Part shown: positions 1 to 7,792 of the stretch, piece after piece
Layout of the letters: every line of letters begins with the position of its first letter
How positions within the stretch are numbered: position 1 is the first letter of the stretch
Assembly (NCBI GenBank): GCA_913009315.1
Contig: CAJVZA010000040.1
Coordinates: forward strand, 1 to 17,418
Source of the DNA: an uncultured Hippea sp.
GTDB taxonomy: Bacteria > Campylobacterota_A > Desulfurellia > JAADFJ01
Length of the DNA stretch: 17,418 nucleotides
Reading direction: 5' to 3'
The notes under the pieces: generated by a model
What the model was told of the DNA's origin: nothing
The model's input: only the letters and a program-made list of their open reading frames with translations
The model's database searches: none
Program-made: the position numbers and the translations under genes

Positions 1-275
1 CTTTAGGAGAGAAACGAGGTCACACCTATTTTTGATAGACAAAATTTTTAAAATAAAGGATAATGTGCAACATGCCAAGAAAAATACGCTGCATCATACC
101 TCGCTTACCCCACCATGCGCTTCAACGCGGGAATAGTCGTCAAGATATTTTTCCCGAATCTAAAGACAAAGAATGTTTCCTGAAACAGTTAAAACAATAT
201 GCACAAGAGAATAGAGCTGCAGTTGGAGCATATTGTTTAATGACCAATCATTTTCACCTATTGATTTATCCCCAC

Positions 276-2278: not shown

Positions 2279-2527
2279 CTATTTTGAGTTATTTCCTGTT
2301 ATTGGAACATTTATCTCTATAAAGTCGTATCCGTCTCGGTGACTAACACTTATATTAAGCGTATCTTTGGTATCGGTATATTTAGACAACACTTTTATCA
2401 GATCGGATTTTAGATCATCAAAGAACGGCAATCGTGCCATACCGCGTTCATGGGCAAGAATTACGTGTAATCTTTCAGTGGCAAGTTTTGCACTTTTTCT
2501 TTTTCTTTTTAGAAAATCAAAAAGCAT
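2279..2527 (-). CDS. minE: Cell division topological specificity factor MinE
   Basis: MinE displaces MinC from MinD and stimulates the MinD ATPase, driving the pole-to-pole oscillation that keeps the Z-ring at midcell. The 82-residue length is normal for the family. The N-terminus MLFDFLKRKRKSAK is the amphipathic membrane-targeting stretch. TERLHVILAHER is the anti-MinCD contact segment that converts between helix and beta strand on binding MinD. The rest (residues 36-78) is the topological specificity domain, ending in IEINVPI. It is the last gene of minCDE, 11 bp after minD, with an AAAGGA ribosome binding site overlapping the minD end. Its own stop is five bases from the mobile-element border at 2274, so any original 3' flank or terminator has been lost. 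Confidence 0.95.
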   Translation of the reverse strand: MLFDFLKRKRKSAKLATERLHVILAHERGMARLPFFDDLKSDLIKVLSKYTDTKDTLNISVSHRDGYDFIEINVPITGNNSK

Positions 2528-2538
2528 ATTATTATCCT

Positions 2539-3321
2539 TTATAATCTTTCAAAAAGTTTACGTAGAAAACTTTTTGGTTTAAGTTCAAGCTGCGGTACAT
2601 CTTCTCCCATCAATCGTCTTGTAATATTTATGTATGCGTTTGCCGTTACAGATATTTTATCCAAAACGGCGGGTTCTCCCTTGTTGGTATATTCTATCAT
2701 TTTAGGATCATCGGGCACTATGCCCAACAGATCGATTGCAAGAATCTGCAGAATATCGTCCTGGCTCATCATTTCACCTTTTTTAACCATTTCGGGTTTT
2801 ATACGATTGACAATTAAAGAAATGTTATGTTTTCCGTTAGCTTCCAATATTCCAACAACTCTGTCTGCATCCCTGATTGATGATATTTCGGGAGTAGCTA
2901 CAATGATAACGCCCTCGGCTCCGGCAAATGCATTTGAAAAGCCGGTTTCGATGCCTGCAGGTGAATCGATAAATACAAAATCAAACTGTTCCTTAAGCAG
3001 TTTAAGAAGATCAAGGAATTTTTCTTTGGATAAGTCCTCTTTTGAATTAGTTTGCGAGGCTGCTAAAAGTTTAAGATTATCTCCTCTTTTGTCTCTTATG
3101 AGAGCGCTGTTAAGTTTTGCTCTTCCTTCGAGAAGATCGATTATGTTATAAACTATGCGATTTTCCAGCCCAAGTATCATATCAAGGTTTCTTAGACCTA
3201 TATCAAGATCAATCGCCACAACCTTTTTTCCTGCAATTGCCATGCCTAATGCAAGGTTTGCGGTCGTTGTTGATTTTCCTACCCCGCCTTTACCTGATGT
3301 AATCGTATATATTTTACCCAT
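2539..3321 (-). CDS. minD: Septum site-determining ATPase MinD
   Basis: MinD is a membrane-cycling ATPase of the ParA/MinD class. As an ATP dimer it binds the inner membrane and recruits MinC to block FtsZ assembly near the poles. The 260 residues include the deviant Walker A loop SGKGGVGKST (9-18, signature K11 and catalytic-loop K16), the switch I segment DLDIGLRNLD near 40, and the DSPAGIE switch II near 120. The last residues, KSFLRKLFERL, form the amphipathic membrane-targeting helix. The ribosome binding site AGGGGAG overlaps the minC stop codon, with about three bases to ATG, so translation is probably coupled to minC. No key residue is missing. Confidence 0.96.
   Translation of the reverse strand: MGKIYTITSGKGGVGKSTTTANLALGMAIAGKKVVAIDLDIGLRNLDMILGLENRIVYNIIDLLEGRAKLNSALIRDKRGDNLKLLAASQTNSKEDLSKEKFLDLLKLLKEQFDFVFIDSPAGIETGFSNAFAGAEGVIIVATPEISSIRDADRVVGILEANGKHNISLIVNRIKPEMVKKGEMMSQDDILQILAIDLLGIVPDDPKMIEYTNKGEPAVLDKISVTANAYINITRRLMGEDVPQLELKPKSFLRKLFERL
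2550..2576 (-). other. Perfect AT-rich hairpin in the 3' end of minD
   Basis: CAAAAAGTTT (2550-2559) and AAACTTTTTG (2567-2576) form a perfect 10-bp stem with a 7-nt loop. It lies inside the codons for the MinD C-terminal membrane helix (FLRKLF), about 25 nt before the minE start. It could tune the MinD:MinE ratio by affecting ribosome passage or mRNA decay. However, the lysine- and phenylalanine-rich coding constraint may explain it by chance. Confidence 0.45.
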
Positions 3322-3329
3322 TTACTCCC

Positions 3330-3962
3330 CTAAATTCCTAAATTGAGTTTTTCATTTCTAATAAGCCAATCATTATAATTTTGTACAATAATAGTACCCG
3401 ATGATAAAAATGCAATTTCAGGTTCTATTTCAGCTCTGTTTTCCCGGGGAGCTCTGGCAACCTTGTCGGCAATTCGTATTTGAGGCGAAAGCAGTTTCAT
3501 TGAGAATATAACAGCACCTTCATTTCCATTAGCTCCGGCATGAACAATTCCGCTGTTGTTTCCCAATATAACAATATTCCCGGTGGCTTTTATCTCCGCC
3601 CCCGAATTCAGATTTCCAAAAAGTACCATATCTCCGTCGATTTCATAAGATTGTCCGCTTCTTATAGTCTTATGAACGGCAGTAATTTCTCTCTTTTCTG
3701 TTTTGGCAACAGATTCGGGATGCTCCTCCTCCGTCTGGCAGCCTATCAGATGGAATCCAAATTTTTTGAGACTTTCAGTAACTATTGGAACCAGGTTTTC
3801 TGCTCCGCTATCCGGCTTTATTATGACCGGACGTGTATTAAAAATCTTTGTATTTTTGGCAAATCTTACAGTCTCTTTTTCTATCTTTTTCCTGTCGTCG
3901 TTATGCACAACTATCTCAAAACAGACTATACTTTTGCCTTTTGCCTCAATAGCGTTACTCAT
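3330..3962 (-). CDS. minC: Septum site-determining protein MinC
   Basis: MinC is the FtsZ antagonist delivered to the membrane by MinD. The 210-residue protein has a divergent N-terminal FtsZ-inhibiting domain (about 1-75), a charged linker (EEEHPESVAKTEKRE), then the right-handed beta-helix that dimerises and binds MinD. That helix starts at HKTIRSGQ, where the RSGQ motif is intact, and continues through GDMVLFGNLNSGAEI, GNIVILGNNSGIVHAGANG and LLSPQIRIA. The usual 'LRG' of the helix reads NSG, a mild change. The ATG has no Shine-Dalgarno sequence. A promoter (-10 TAGAAT at 3970-3975) places transcription at or next to the start codon, so the message is probably leaderless. It is the first gene of minCDE and divergent from queE. 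Confidence 0.93.
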   Translation of the reverse strand: MSNAIEAKGKSIVCFEIVVHNDDRKKIEKETVRFAKNTKIFNTRPVIIKPDSGAENLVPIVTESLKKFGFHLIGCQTEEEHPESVAKTEKREITAVHKTIRSGQSYEIDGDMVLFGNLNSGAEIKATGNIVILGNNSGIVHAGANGNEGAVIFSMKLLSPQIRIADKVARAPRENRAEIEPEIAFLSSGTIIVQNYNDWLIRNEKLNLGI

Positions 3963-4027
3963 TTAATCTATTCTAACAAAAAACCGGACAGTTGCAAATA
4001 GTCTATTTTTCTGTATTATTATTATCG
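3962..4027. promoter_or_regulatory. Symmetric divergent promoter of minC and queE sharing one palindromic -35 box
   Basis: TTGCAA (3992-3997) is its own reverse complement, so it can act as the -35 box in both directions. To the right it is followed by a 16-nt spacer, TATTAT (4014-4019), seven nt and the queE GTG (4027). To the left, on the minus strand, it is followed by a 16-nt spacer, TAGAAT (3975-3970), seven nt and the minC ATG (3962). Both start codons lie 32.5 bp from the centre. Neither gene has a Shine-Dalgarno sequence, and the -10 positions put transcription starts at or within one base of the start codons. The hexamers and distances are read directly; promoter activity, leaderless translation and mutual exclusion are inferred. 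Two more overlapping TATTAT options exist at 4017 and 4020. Confidence 0.65.
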
Positions 4028-4692
4028 TGAAGCTTCCTGTTTCGGAAACATTTTATTCTATTCAGGGTGAAGGCGTGAATGTGGGTAGGCCTGCACTCTT
4101 TATTCGTGTTTATGGGTGCAACAAGCGCTGTGTCTGGTGCGACAGCTCATACAGCTATGAGGGCGGCAGCTACAGCCTCTTTTCTGAAGAGCGGGTCATT
4201 CGGATGATTGAGCAGTCGTTTGTTAAAACGGTTGTTCTGACAGGCGGTGAGCCTGCTATTTATCATGATTTTTTTTCACGCTTGATTGATCTTGCTCCGG
4301 CAGCATATTTTATGGAAACGAATGGAACAATCTGGATTGAAGATCTTATAGAAAAACTTGATTTTATATCAATTTCTCCAAAACTTTCTTCTTCCGGAGC
4401 TGACTTCGATATAGGTCTTATAAAAAGATATGTTGATAATGTTCATAACGGGGAGATAAAATTTGTCATAGCCGATATGCAGGATATAGAAGAGGCTATA
4501 GGGATTATCAATGCTTTGTCAAACAAAAAGAATGCTGTTTCAATAGTGTTTCAGCCCGCTGAGATTTCAGGAGAAGATTATTTACATCAGATACAAATGG
4601 TATATCAGGCGATTATGAAAAATCAATTTTTAAACAGCCTTAAAACATTAAGGTTTATTCCGCAGGTGCATAAATTATGTAATCTAAAATAA
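4027..4692 (+). CDS. queE: 7-carboxy-7-deazaguanine synthase (radical SAM)
   Basis: QueE performs the radical-SAM ring contraction of 6-carboxy-tetrahydropterin to 7-carboxy-7-deazaguanine, a step toward preQ0 and queuosine in tRNA (or deazaguanine DNA modification in some systems). The 221 residues begin with ETFYSIQGEG, the family hallmark. The iron-sulfur cluster motif CNKRCVWC follows (C31, C35, C38), with the usual adjacent CD. LTGGEPA is the SAM-binding GGE motif. Start is GTG, supported by the family N-terminus and the promoter spacing. There is no Shine-Dalgarno sequence, so a leaderless mRNA is likely. No other queuosine gene lies in the window, so the pathway must be dispersed. It is the first gene of an apparent operon with the next two genes. 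Confidence 0.93.
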   Translation: MKLPVSETFYSIQGEGVNVGRPALFIRVYGCNKRCVWCDSSYSYEGGSYSLFSEERVIRMIEQSFVKTVVLTGGEPAIYHDFFSRLIDLAPAAYFMETNGTIWIEDLIEKLDFISISPKLSSSGADFDIGLIKRYVDNVHNGEIKFVIADMQDIEEAIGIINALSNKKNAVSIVFQPAEISGEDYLHQIQMVYQAIMKNQFLNSLKTLRFIPQVHKLCNLK

Positions 4693-4707
4693 CAGGAGGT
4701 GGTTTTT

Positions 4708-5226
4708 ATGGAAACAGTTTGCATTTCGGTGCCCTTTGAATACCGGAGGACAGATTCAAAGAGCGCTGCAGGCGATTATTCTATATGTCCGGTTATCGAT
4801 AAAGAGGGGGAGTTATGGTTTTCATTCATTCACACGGAGATTGCAGATATCATCTCATCAATCGGTGATTCCCTGCGCATACTCCTTCGTTCGGTATCTT
4901 CCCTGAATGGTGCAAAAAAGGTGTTTCTTATCGGATTTATCAATCCTGACGTCAAGTCATTGGAGGGGGGCGGTTATCATAAATTCAAGGCGAAACAGAT
5001 CCATATATTAAAGGAAAACGATTTTCTCGACATAACAGAGGCTATATTAAGTCGAGGCATAAACAAAAGAGTTGCAAAAAGCAACAGTATTAATCACCCG
5101 GAATATAAAAATATGCTGAATGACTGGCTGAATTATCTTACAGATAAACAGGATGATTCGGCTATTTTTATCTACGATATTAAAAATAGCAGCAAAATTA
5201 AGGCGGTGATTGATGAAAAGATATAA
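4708..5226 (+). CDS. Unrecognised 172-residue protein between queE and the EF-G-2 gene
   Basis: I do not recognise this protein. It is soluble-looking, with no signal peptide or membrane segment, and begins METVCISVPFEYRR. A hydrophobic strand VFLIGFINPD sits in the middle, and the C-terminal half is lysine- and asparagine-rich. It has no cysteine pairs or nucleotide-binding loop. Start choice: an in-frame GTG at 4699 lies inside the strong ribosome binding site AGGAGGTG (4694-4701), so ATG 4708, six bases downstream, is the true start. It begins 16 bp after the queE end and overlaps the EF-G-2 gene by 14 bp, so it is almost certainly co-transcribed and translationally coupled with that gene. 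The role is unknown; the neighbours suggest, without proving, a link to tRNA modification or translation. Confidence 0.85.
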   Translation: METVCISVPFEYRRTDSKSAAGDYSICPVIDKEGELWFSFIHTEIADIISSIGDSLRILLRSVSSLNGAKKVFLIGFINPDVKSLEGGGYHKFKAKQIHILKENDFLDITEAILSRGINKRVAKSNSINHPEYKNMLNDWLNYLTDKQDDSAIFIYDIKNSSKIKAVIDEKI

Positions 5227-7192
5227 CGTAGCGCTGATTGGACAAAGAAGTTCAGGCAAAACAATCCTTAGCGAACGAATACTTTTTGAGACAAAAAATA
5301 TAAGCAGAATGGGCAGTACGACTGACGGGAATTCTACAACGGATTACCATAGAACGGAAATATCACGTGGTTTTTCCATCCAGCTGTCGCTTTTTAATTT
5401 CAACTGGAAAGATGATCTGTATTCTGCAATAGATACTCCCGGATATTCGAATTTTATAGGAGATGCCCTCTGCGGTATCGGAGCAGTTGATAACGTTATT
5501 TATGTGGCTGACAGCAGTGATGATCTTAAAGCCAATGGGTTTCGATTACTGCAGCAGACACGGAAACGATCGCTTCCTACCTTGATTTTTATCAACAAAC
5601 TTGATGCTGAGCGTTCAGATTATGAAAAATGTTTTGAAGCAATAAAGACCGTTGACAACAGGGCTGTACTTATGCAGCTTCCGGTCGAAAAAACGAATTC
5701 CGTTATAAATCTGCTTGCCTCCGATGAATTTCCCGATGAAATTTCGGAAAAGGCACTTGCCATGAAAGAAAAACTTATAGAGTCGATAGTCGAATCGGAT
5801 GATCGGCTGCTTGAAAAATATCTTGAAGGTGAAAAAATAGAAACAGAAGCATTGAGAGATCTTTTGAAAAAAGATGTAGTAAGCGGAGCAATATGCCCTG
5901 TTTTTGTCGGTTCGGCTTTAACGGGTGCAGGAATTAAAGAACTGCTTGATGCGGCGTCGAGATGGTTTATTTCGGGCGACCAAAGAGTATTGGATATAGA
6001 TGGAGATAAGTCAAAAATCGATGATATGTTTATAGCTTCTGTATTCAAAACCTTTAATGATCCAAAATCAGGGAGAACGAACTGCATAAGAATATGGTCG
6101 GGCAGCATGAAGTCGGATTCAACATATTACAATACCACCAAAAAGACCGTTGAAAGAGTTGGAAGCTTATTGAGACTTCAGGGTAAAAAGGCTGTTCCCG
6201 TTGAAACTGCTGTTGCAGGCGAACTAATAGCGGTAAACAAACTTAAAGAAACACTAACCGGTGATACATTAACAGCCGATCAAAGCAGCGTGAGCGTTAA
6301 AACTCCCGATATGCCTCCAACATTGATTCGATATAGGATATTGGGAAAATCAAAACAGGATACTGAAAAGATAGGCGGATACCTGTCAAAAATACTTGAG
6401 GAAGATATAAGTTTAAAATTTGAAAAGAATCGTGAAACAAATGAGTTCGTACTTTCAGGTATGGGCAAACTTCATATTGATATAACAGTGGAAAAGTTGA
6501 AAAGGCGTTATGGCGTTGAAGTCATAGCAGAATTACCAAGCGTTCCTTATAAAGAGACGATAAAAAAGGAAGTTACGGCGCAGGGCAGATATAAAAAGCA
6601 GACGGGCGGACATGGTCAGTTCGGAGATTGCAAGATTGTTGTTGCGCCGTCGAAAAGCTACGAAGACGGCGTATTATTTGTCGATCAGATCGTTGGCGGT
6701 GCGATACCGAGACAATATATTCCATCTGTAGAAAAAGGTGTAAGGGATGCGCTTAAGAAGGGAAAACTTGGAGAATATCCGGTGACTGGAATTTCAATAA
6801 GATTGACTGACGGTTCATATCATCCTGTGGACTCCTCGGATCTTGCATTTCAGATGGCCGGTCAAATTGCGATAAAGAAGGCTCTCGATGATGCGTCTCC
6901 TGTTTTAATAGAACCGATTTACAAAGTTGAGATTATCTGCAGGGAAGGTGATGTCGGTGCAGTGATAGGTGATTTAAACAGCAGGCGCGGAGAAGTTGTA
7001 AATATGAGACATCATGATGACATAAAAGAATTCAGGATAATTGATGCAAGAATGCCTAAAACGGAGCTGCTTGCTTATGCGCCTGCTCTGCGTTCACTAA
7101 CGGCCGGTTTTGGACGATTTACTTCCGATTTTGAACGGTACAAGGAAGTTCCCGAGCAGATTGCAAAAACAATCCTGCAGGCAGCGCAATAA
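5213..7192 (+). CDS. Elongation factor G-like GTPase (EF-G-2 / FusA2 type)
   Basis: This is a 659-residue translational GTPase with all five EF-G domains. Seen: P-loop GQRSSGKT (10-17), G3 DTPGY (D74-Y78) and G4 NKLD (128-131). Domain III carries LSGMGKLHIDI, domain IV has TGGHGQFGDCKI and GGAIPRQYIPSVEKG, and a ferredoxin-like domain V ends the chain. Canonical EF-G has GHVDHGKT and DTPGH. Here the histidine that activates water is tyrosine, as I recall for the EF-G-2 paralogue of Thermus (DAPGY). It is therefore probably an EF-G-2 with altered or ribosome-independent GTPase behaviour, not the main translocase. The second codon, ATG 5213, is preferred over TTG 5210 because GGCGG lies six bases upstream of it. 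It overlaps the preceding gene by 14 bp. Exact cellular role is unknown. Confidence 0.88.
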   Translation: MKRYNVALIGQRSSGKTILSERILFETKNISRMGSTTDGNSTTDYHRTEISRGFSIQLSLFNFNWKDDLYSAIDTPGYSNFIGDALCGIGAVDNVIYVADSSDDLKANGFRLLQQTRKRSLPTLIFINKLDAERSDYEKCFEAIKTVDNRAVLMQLPVEKTNSVINLLASDEFPDEISEKALAMKEKLIESIVESDDRLLEKYLEGEKIETEALRDLLKKDVVSGAICPVFVGSALTGAGIKELLDAASRWFISGDQRVLDIDGDKSKIDDMFIASVFKTFNDPKSGRTNCIRIWSGSMKSDSTYYNTTKKTVERVGSLLRLQGKKAVPVETAVAGELIAVNKLKETLTGDTLTADQSSVSVKTPDMPPTLIRYRILGKSKQDTEKIGGYLSKILEEDISLKFEKNRETNEFVLSGMGKLHIDITVEKLKRRYGVEVIAELPSVPYKETIKKEVTAQGRYKKQTGGHGQFGDCKIVVAPSKSYEDGVLFVDQIVGGAIPRQYIPSVEKGVRDALKKGKLGEYPVTGISIRLTDGSYHPVDSSDLAFQMAGQIAIKKALDDASPVLIEPIYKVEIICREGDVGAVIGDLNSRRGEVVNMRHHDDIKEFRIIDARMPKTELLAYAPALRSLTAGFGRFTSDFERYKEVPEQIAKTILQAAQ

Positions 7193-7335: not shown

Positions 7336-7514
7336 TTTCAGATTGAAAGCCCGAATCTGTTTTATAAACTTACTTTGCATATCGGATGCGTCCTTGAGTG
7401 CAAAGAGAAGACTGATCCGGGACTCAAATGATCCTTGTATGAATTTAACAGAGTTGCCCTTATTTTTCTTAACGCAGATTTCCCAACGCGGGCAAAGAAA
7501 ATAAGACAAAGAGC

Positions 7515-7751
7515 ACTGAGACTGCCGCGGCCTTTGGCCTCGCAGTGACAAAAGAAGGAAGGTCATTGTCTTGAAATTTCCCCTCCGTCATTGCGAGTGC
7601 AGCGAAGCAATCTCACCACAGGCAGGATGCCTATGATACACTGAGACTGCTTCGGCCTTTGGCCTCGCAGTGACAGAAGGAAAAAGTCATTGCGAGTGGT
7701 GCAGCGAAGCAATCTCAGCTTCTTCAGTGTATCACAGGCATCCTGCCTGTG
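7515..7751. repeat. Cluster of alternating palindromic repeats (family A and B)
   Basis: Four family A units are seen: 7588-7614 and 7687-7716 forward, 7517-7549 and 7642-7674 reverse. Each has TCATTGCGAG (or TCACTGCGAG) at one end and GAAGCAATCTC-like sequence at the other. The reverse units carry the palindromic centre GGCCTTTGGCC. The B unit (7617-7644) has an inverted partner at 7724-7751, identical at 27 of 28 positions. B, A-reverse, A-forward and B-inverted thus make a 135-bp palindrome centred near 7681. The 7515-7567 and 7640-7690 blocks are also direct repeats of each other. Such REP/BIME-like arrays are typically spread by RAYT transposases, and a broken RAYT gene lies at the window start. 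The rest of the gene-free stretch 7193-8008 contains the other features listed; 7336-7514 shows nothing convincing. Confidence 0.75.
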
Positions 7752-7765
7752 GCAAGATTGTTTTG

Positions 7766-7792
7766 CCTGCCTGCGCTTATCACGCAGACAGG
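7766..7792. repeat. Ten-bp stem hairpin beside the repeat cluster
   Basis: CCTGCCTGCG (7766-7775) pairs with CGCAGACAGG (7783-7792) at nine of ten positions, with a 7-nt loop. It follows the B unit directly and shares its CCTGCCTG core, so it is probably part of the same repeat family. No T-run follows that would make it a terminator. Confidence 0.5.

Follow-up and report, generated by a model that had tools for sequence, protein, structure and literature searches.

A divergent minC-queE gap with two predicted leaderless promoters and a probable shared palindromic -35 box

The window (the whole 17,418-nt stretch of DNA analyzed here) is contig C40 of genome G000 (1.74 Mb in 96 contigs), and the genome-wide counts given below cover 1.37 Mb of this genome with 1,194 predicted genes. 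Two divergent gene groups in the window are separated by a short gap:

2279 to 2527, minus strand: minE
2539 to 3321, minus strand: minD
3330 to 3962, minus strand: minC, septum site-determining protein, the first gene of minC-minD-minE
4027 to 4692, plus strand: queE-like gene for a radical SAM protein of the 7-carboxy-7-deazaguanine synthase family, scoring under the curated NCBIfam thresholds for all QueE models
4699 to 5226, plus strand: ORF of no known family, probably co-transcribed with queE given the close spacing
5210 to 7192, plus strand: second elongation factor G, probably on the queE transcript

The start codons bounding the gap are backed by alignment, with the conserved MinC motif beginning 6-7 residues, and that of QueE 5 residues, past the start in nearly all relatives. 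The minC start codon is ATG in all 23 genomes compared; queE starts with GTG in the window and with ATG in most relatives. The other elongation factor G copy of this genome lies on contig C46. Elsewhere in the window, a short Y1-transposase-like ORF occupies positions 63-482, and positions 7460-7770 are part of a high-copy repeat that gives at least 100 hits across this genome, many of them mutually inverted.

The gap between minC and queE is 64 nt long and carries TTGCAA at its center, the hexamer center (3994.5) being the midpoint of 3962 and 4027. The following elements were located by reading the sequence together with a generic promoter scan (hexamers) or are predicted from the geometry (transcript starts):

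3963 to 3969, minus strand: 7 nt between the minC -10 hexamer and the ATG (3962), predicted transcript start at 3962 or 3963
3970 to 3975, minus strand: minC -10 hexamer TAGAAT (5/6), with a 16-nt spacer (3991-3976)
3976 to 3978, minus strand: minC extended -10 TGT, preceding TAGAAT; TGn is kept in 23/23 genomes of the class
3992 to 3997, no strand assigned: self-complementary -35 hexamer TTGCAA, common to both promoters
4014 to 4019, plus strand: queE -10 hexamer TATTAT (5/6), with a 16-nt spacer (3998-4013)
4020 to 4026, plus strand: 7 nt between the queE -10 hexamer and the GTG (4027), predicted transcript start at 4027

These coordinates, spacings and hexamers, as well as the central position of TTGCAA, had been given in the first-pass annotation and were all right when re-read from the sequence, and the generic scan recovers both promoters. 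The sigma70 pattern is present on both sides, with a -35 matching TTGACA at 4/6, a -10 matching at 5/6 and a spacer of 16 nt. Both genes also have the -10 placed 6-9 nt ahead of the start codon together with a properly spaced -35, an arrangement referred to below as leaderless-type. The extended -10 is present on the minC side and absent on the queE side, and TATTAT recurs at 4017 and 4020, both at wrong spacers from TTGCAA. No Shine-Dalgarno (SD) 4-mer was found 3-12 nt ahead of either start codon, which bears out the earlier statement that both genes lack this sequence. Of the transcript starts placed earlier at 3962 and 4027, the latter stands, whereas the former was widened to 3962 or 3963, corresponding to a predicted minC leader of 0-1 nt.

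The generic scan by itself says little since it reports 8 sites within 1 kb of sequence surrounding the gap. Such frequent promoter-like matches would fit an explanation by chance, in which AT-rich DNA yields the hexamers fortuitously and the transcripts have ordinary leaders. When the 64-nt gap was shuffled 100,000 times with its dinucleotides preserved, however, the right-hand promoter arose in 321 shuffles (0.3%), the left-hand promoter in 658 and both in just 2, and the gap is too short for a leadered start with an SD on either side. We regard the chance explanation as extremely improbable, and the conservation of the minC arrangement across the class, described below, argues further against it. 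The perfect symmetry of the gap adds little in itself. Two leaderless promoters need around 70 bp, so that their -35 boxes must overlap in a gap of 64 bp, and equal spacers then result in symmetry.

Analysis of the whole genome suggested that the arrangement is not confined to this locus. Gene starts refined by coding score, without using the SD, gave a clear -10 peak, whereas the longest-ORF starts gave a weak one. Ahead of divergent genes, the extended -10 TGNTANNNT peaks at a distance of 6-7 nt to the start codon, with 8 occurrences compared with approximately 1 expected (around 0.5 per position elsewhere). For 35 other genes chosen by the -10 and its position alone, TTG stands exactly 16 or 17 nt further upstream in 24, compared with 2-4 in bands of equal width. 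A stricter control, requiring a 5/6 -10 at a gap of 6-8 nt, identified TTG at 16 or 17 nt in 21 of the 32 other first-in-unit genes versus none of the 13 operon-internal genes. Complete promoters cluster at a gap of 6-9 nt (33 genes), and a second, broad group lies at approximately 28-34 nt, the distance expected of leadered genes. Collectively, leaderless genes appear to form a real minority class in this genome. The near-absence of an SD among the candidates (1/33 versus 43%) was dropped as independent evidence, because the -10 fills the position of the SD and its absence from leaderless-type genes is partly mechanical. The positional signal and the independent -35 check, together with the minC pattern found in 23/23 genomes, uphold the earlier proposal of leaderless starts as a prediction, with minC probably and queE likely leaderless.

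The capacity of TTGCAA to act as a -35 box was assessed in the same genome. TTGACA ranks first, a -10 following 30 of its 71 occurrences (10-fold above the base rate). TTGCAA is paired with a -10 in 11 of 45 occurrences (5.8-fold), which places it third by score among the non-overlapping kinds of -10 partner hexamer and next to TTGACA once shifts of the latter are set aside; the preference is for TTGACA or TTGCAA at a spacing of 16-17 nt. TTGCAA is a genuine -35 variant of this genome, and it is the self-complementary member of the -35 group, which makes sharing between two promoters possible. A search of the 1.37 Mb for a general class of promoters using TTGCAA on both sides found none, and two-sided 4/6 matches occur at the chance rate for any palindrome. 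Within this sample, TTGCAA with a 5/6 -10 on both sides is present in the window only.

Comparison within the genus involves two genomes, G000 and G001; the contigs of G002 break inside both genes, and a contig search for further members gave G001 only. The gap differs between the two genomes at 1 of 64 nt (position 3985, in the minC spacer), and the queE side is identical, whereas fourfold sites in the flanking genes differ by 12.5-16.5%. Around 10 changes would be expected in the gap and one is observed, indicating that the gap is constrained. Alignment of the min-que interval in related genomes had been proposed in the first-pass annotation as a check, and it shows that TTGCAA and both spacer lengths are kept in G001. 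A longer stretch of approximately 170 nt (3916-4085), which takes in the opening codons of minC and queE, carries a single substitution between the two genomes.

Family f2 (G003, G005 and G007) has the same divergent minC/queE pair with a gap of 78 nt. The f1 and f2 gaps were compared by start-codon anchoring, since the MAFFT alignment was wrong there. The minC side in f2 reads TTGCAA-17-TGATATTTT-7-ATG, and queE owns a TTGACT box 7 bp from the -35 of minC, followed by the -10 candidates AATAAT (spacer 16, 7 nt to the codon) or TAGAAT (spacer 13, 10 nt to the codon). The three f2 genomes vary at nine columns of the gap, none of them inside a promoter box. The shared -35 proposed earlier is favored by the geometry, by the standing of TTGCAA as a -35 variant and by its retention in G001, but the f2 pair uses two separate boxes; sharing is seen only in the genus of the window (2 genomes), where it is probable from the sequence comparison.

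Across the class (probably Desulfurellia), the minC pattern TTG-16/17-TGnTA-7..9-ATG without an SD is found in 23/23 genomes from four families. In families f3 and f4, minC and queE lie apart, and the divergent partner of minC is a UPF0047, ApbA or glutaredoxin-like protein. The minC promoter there reads TTGaat/aaa-17-TGnTATTTa-7..9-ATG without an SD, with the -10 TATTTA lacking the usual final T. Leaderless-type promoters of queE are found in f1, f4 and most of the f3 genus g3, the f3 and f4 copies being located away from minC; none was found in the f3 genera g5 and g6. We infer that the predicted leaderless promoter of minC is old and independent of queE. In f3 (L010, L012 and L015-L020), conservation of the minC promoter extends from the boxes to the spacer (TTGAATTATAnCAAATTATATGGTATTTA), beyond what a promoter alone requires, and a bound regulator is a possible reason for this.

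We consider it quite likely that two sigma70 promoters stand back to back in the window, squeezed to the minimum length, each predicted to start its transcript on the first codon or 1 nt ahead of it, with the palindromic TTGCAA serving both. The min operon would have an old leaderless promoter that is self-sufficient and belongs to the class as a whole, queE would carry its own leaderless promoter in many relatives, and in the genus of the window both may have been pushed together until a single TTGCAA served both. Leaderless promoters would have come first, adjacency second and box fusion last, an order suggested by the distribution among families rather than by a tree. The actual transcript starts and the two-way use of TTGCAA are what we infer. 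The GTG start of queE, the 4/6 match of TTGCAA to TTGACA and the occurrence of the shared box in two genomes count against this reading, and leaderless non-AUG starts are reported to be inefficient in E. coli (PMC3616915).

The GTG start also bears on the possibility that only the minC promoter uses TTGCAA, with queE transcribed from elsewhere, such as antisense within minC, and the TATTAT repeat incidental. The simple repeat TATTATTATTAT in the queE -10 region and the extended -10 on the minC side point in the same direction. This possibility is nevertheless unlikely in view of the unchanged queE side of the gap in G001, the recurrence of leaderless-type queE promoters in other families and the rarity of the right-hand promoter in the shuffles.

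If both promoters work, RNA polymerase must choose its direction at TTGCAA, as two-way use of the hexamer would bar simultaneous occupancy of both directions; this is physical exclusion and not yet regulation. The first-pass annotation had read the arrangement as a switch between cell-division control by minCDE and queuosine synthesis by queE, in which the regulated choice imposed by the shared -35 would be the reason for its retention. The strong conservation of the gap within the genus is consistent with such a switch, and a link to division is imaginable because the QueE of E. coli has a second role in inhibiting division (PMC11142719). That link is only suggestive here, since the distant QueE proteins of P. 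aeruginosa and B. subtilis are without division activity (PMC11142719). Moreover, the shared element does not accompany the pair wherever it is divergent, as the separate boxes of f2 show, and the minC promoter is kept in f3 and f4 though its partner changes. At five tested E. coli bidirectional promoters, basal activity was not high enough for competition, and strong activation of one direction was needed before any appeared (PMC12825309). Given the kept minC promoter and the low basal activity of the E. coli promoters, the switch is not supported, and we consider it very unlikely. Mutual exclusion is more likely a by-product of compaction. Highly improbable, too, is the proposal that MinCDE is tied to QueE by mutually exclusive polymerase binding at a palindromic -35 on leaderless messages, with the ratio depending on conditions that affect the state of polymerase or ribosomes. 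On the queuosine side, QueC is present in G000, and tRNA-guanine transglycosylase (tgt, PF01702) was not found in G000 or G002; it is present in G001 and most of the class. The lack of tgt had suggested that the genome of the window makes no queuosine; this idea was rejected, because the presence of tgt in G001 of the same genus makes an assembly gap just as likely.

Compact divergent promoters with a leaderless member are familiar from lambda cI (PRM/PR) and tetR/tetA, which are repressor switches with operators. The minC-queE gap resembles them in combining compact divergent promoters with predicted leaderless messages and differs in that no regulator gene or operator was found there. The gap also resembles the bidirectional sigma70 promoters of Warman, Grainger and colleagues, where polymerase can bind a single symmetrical element in either orientation (PMC10268837, PMC12825309). 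By the published definition, those promoters share the -10 and have starts 7-25 bp apart (PMC10268837); the gap falls outside this definition, with a shared -35, separate -10s and predicted starts approximately 65 bp apart. A shared palindromic -35 would be a compact variant of divergent promoters that suits the measurement of polymerase competition at the -35 instead of the -10.

The leaderless mRNAs of C. jejuni and H. pylori, which belong to the same phylum if Campylobacterota is taken in its older sense, likewise have a sigma70 -10 just ahead of the start codon and no SD (PMC3847290). Those messages are poorly conserved, with 3 of 23 genes shared (PMC3847290), whereas minC here looks leaderless in 23/23 genomes of four families. 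If true, a leaderless promoter of a division operon kept over four families despite a change of neighbor would be a clear counter-example to the reported poor conservation, and one that cultivated relatives such as Hippea make easy to test. A search of the open-access literature found neither a leaderless min operon nor a shared -35 described, which is weak evidence of novelty as subscription journals lay outside the search.

Among the 94 divergent pairs in the 1.37 Mb of G000, 3 have a leaderless-type promoter on both sides. A second such pair, on contig C29 (6076-6152, L099), has a gap of 76 nt in which the -35 boxes TTGCAA and TTGCCA nearly abut and are not shared; it is flanked by a glycosyltransferase-like gene and an Rrf2-like regulator, both named by eye.
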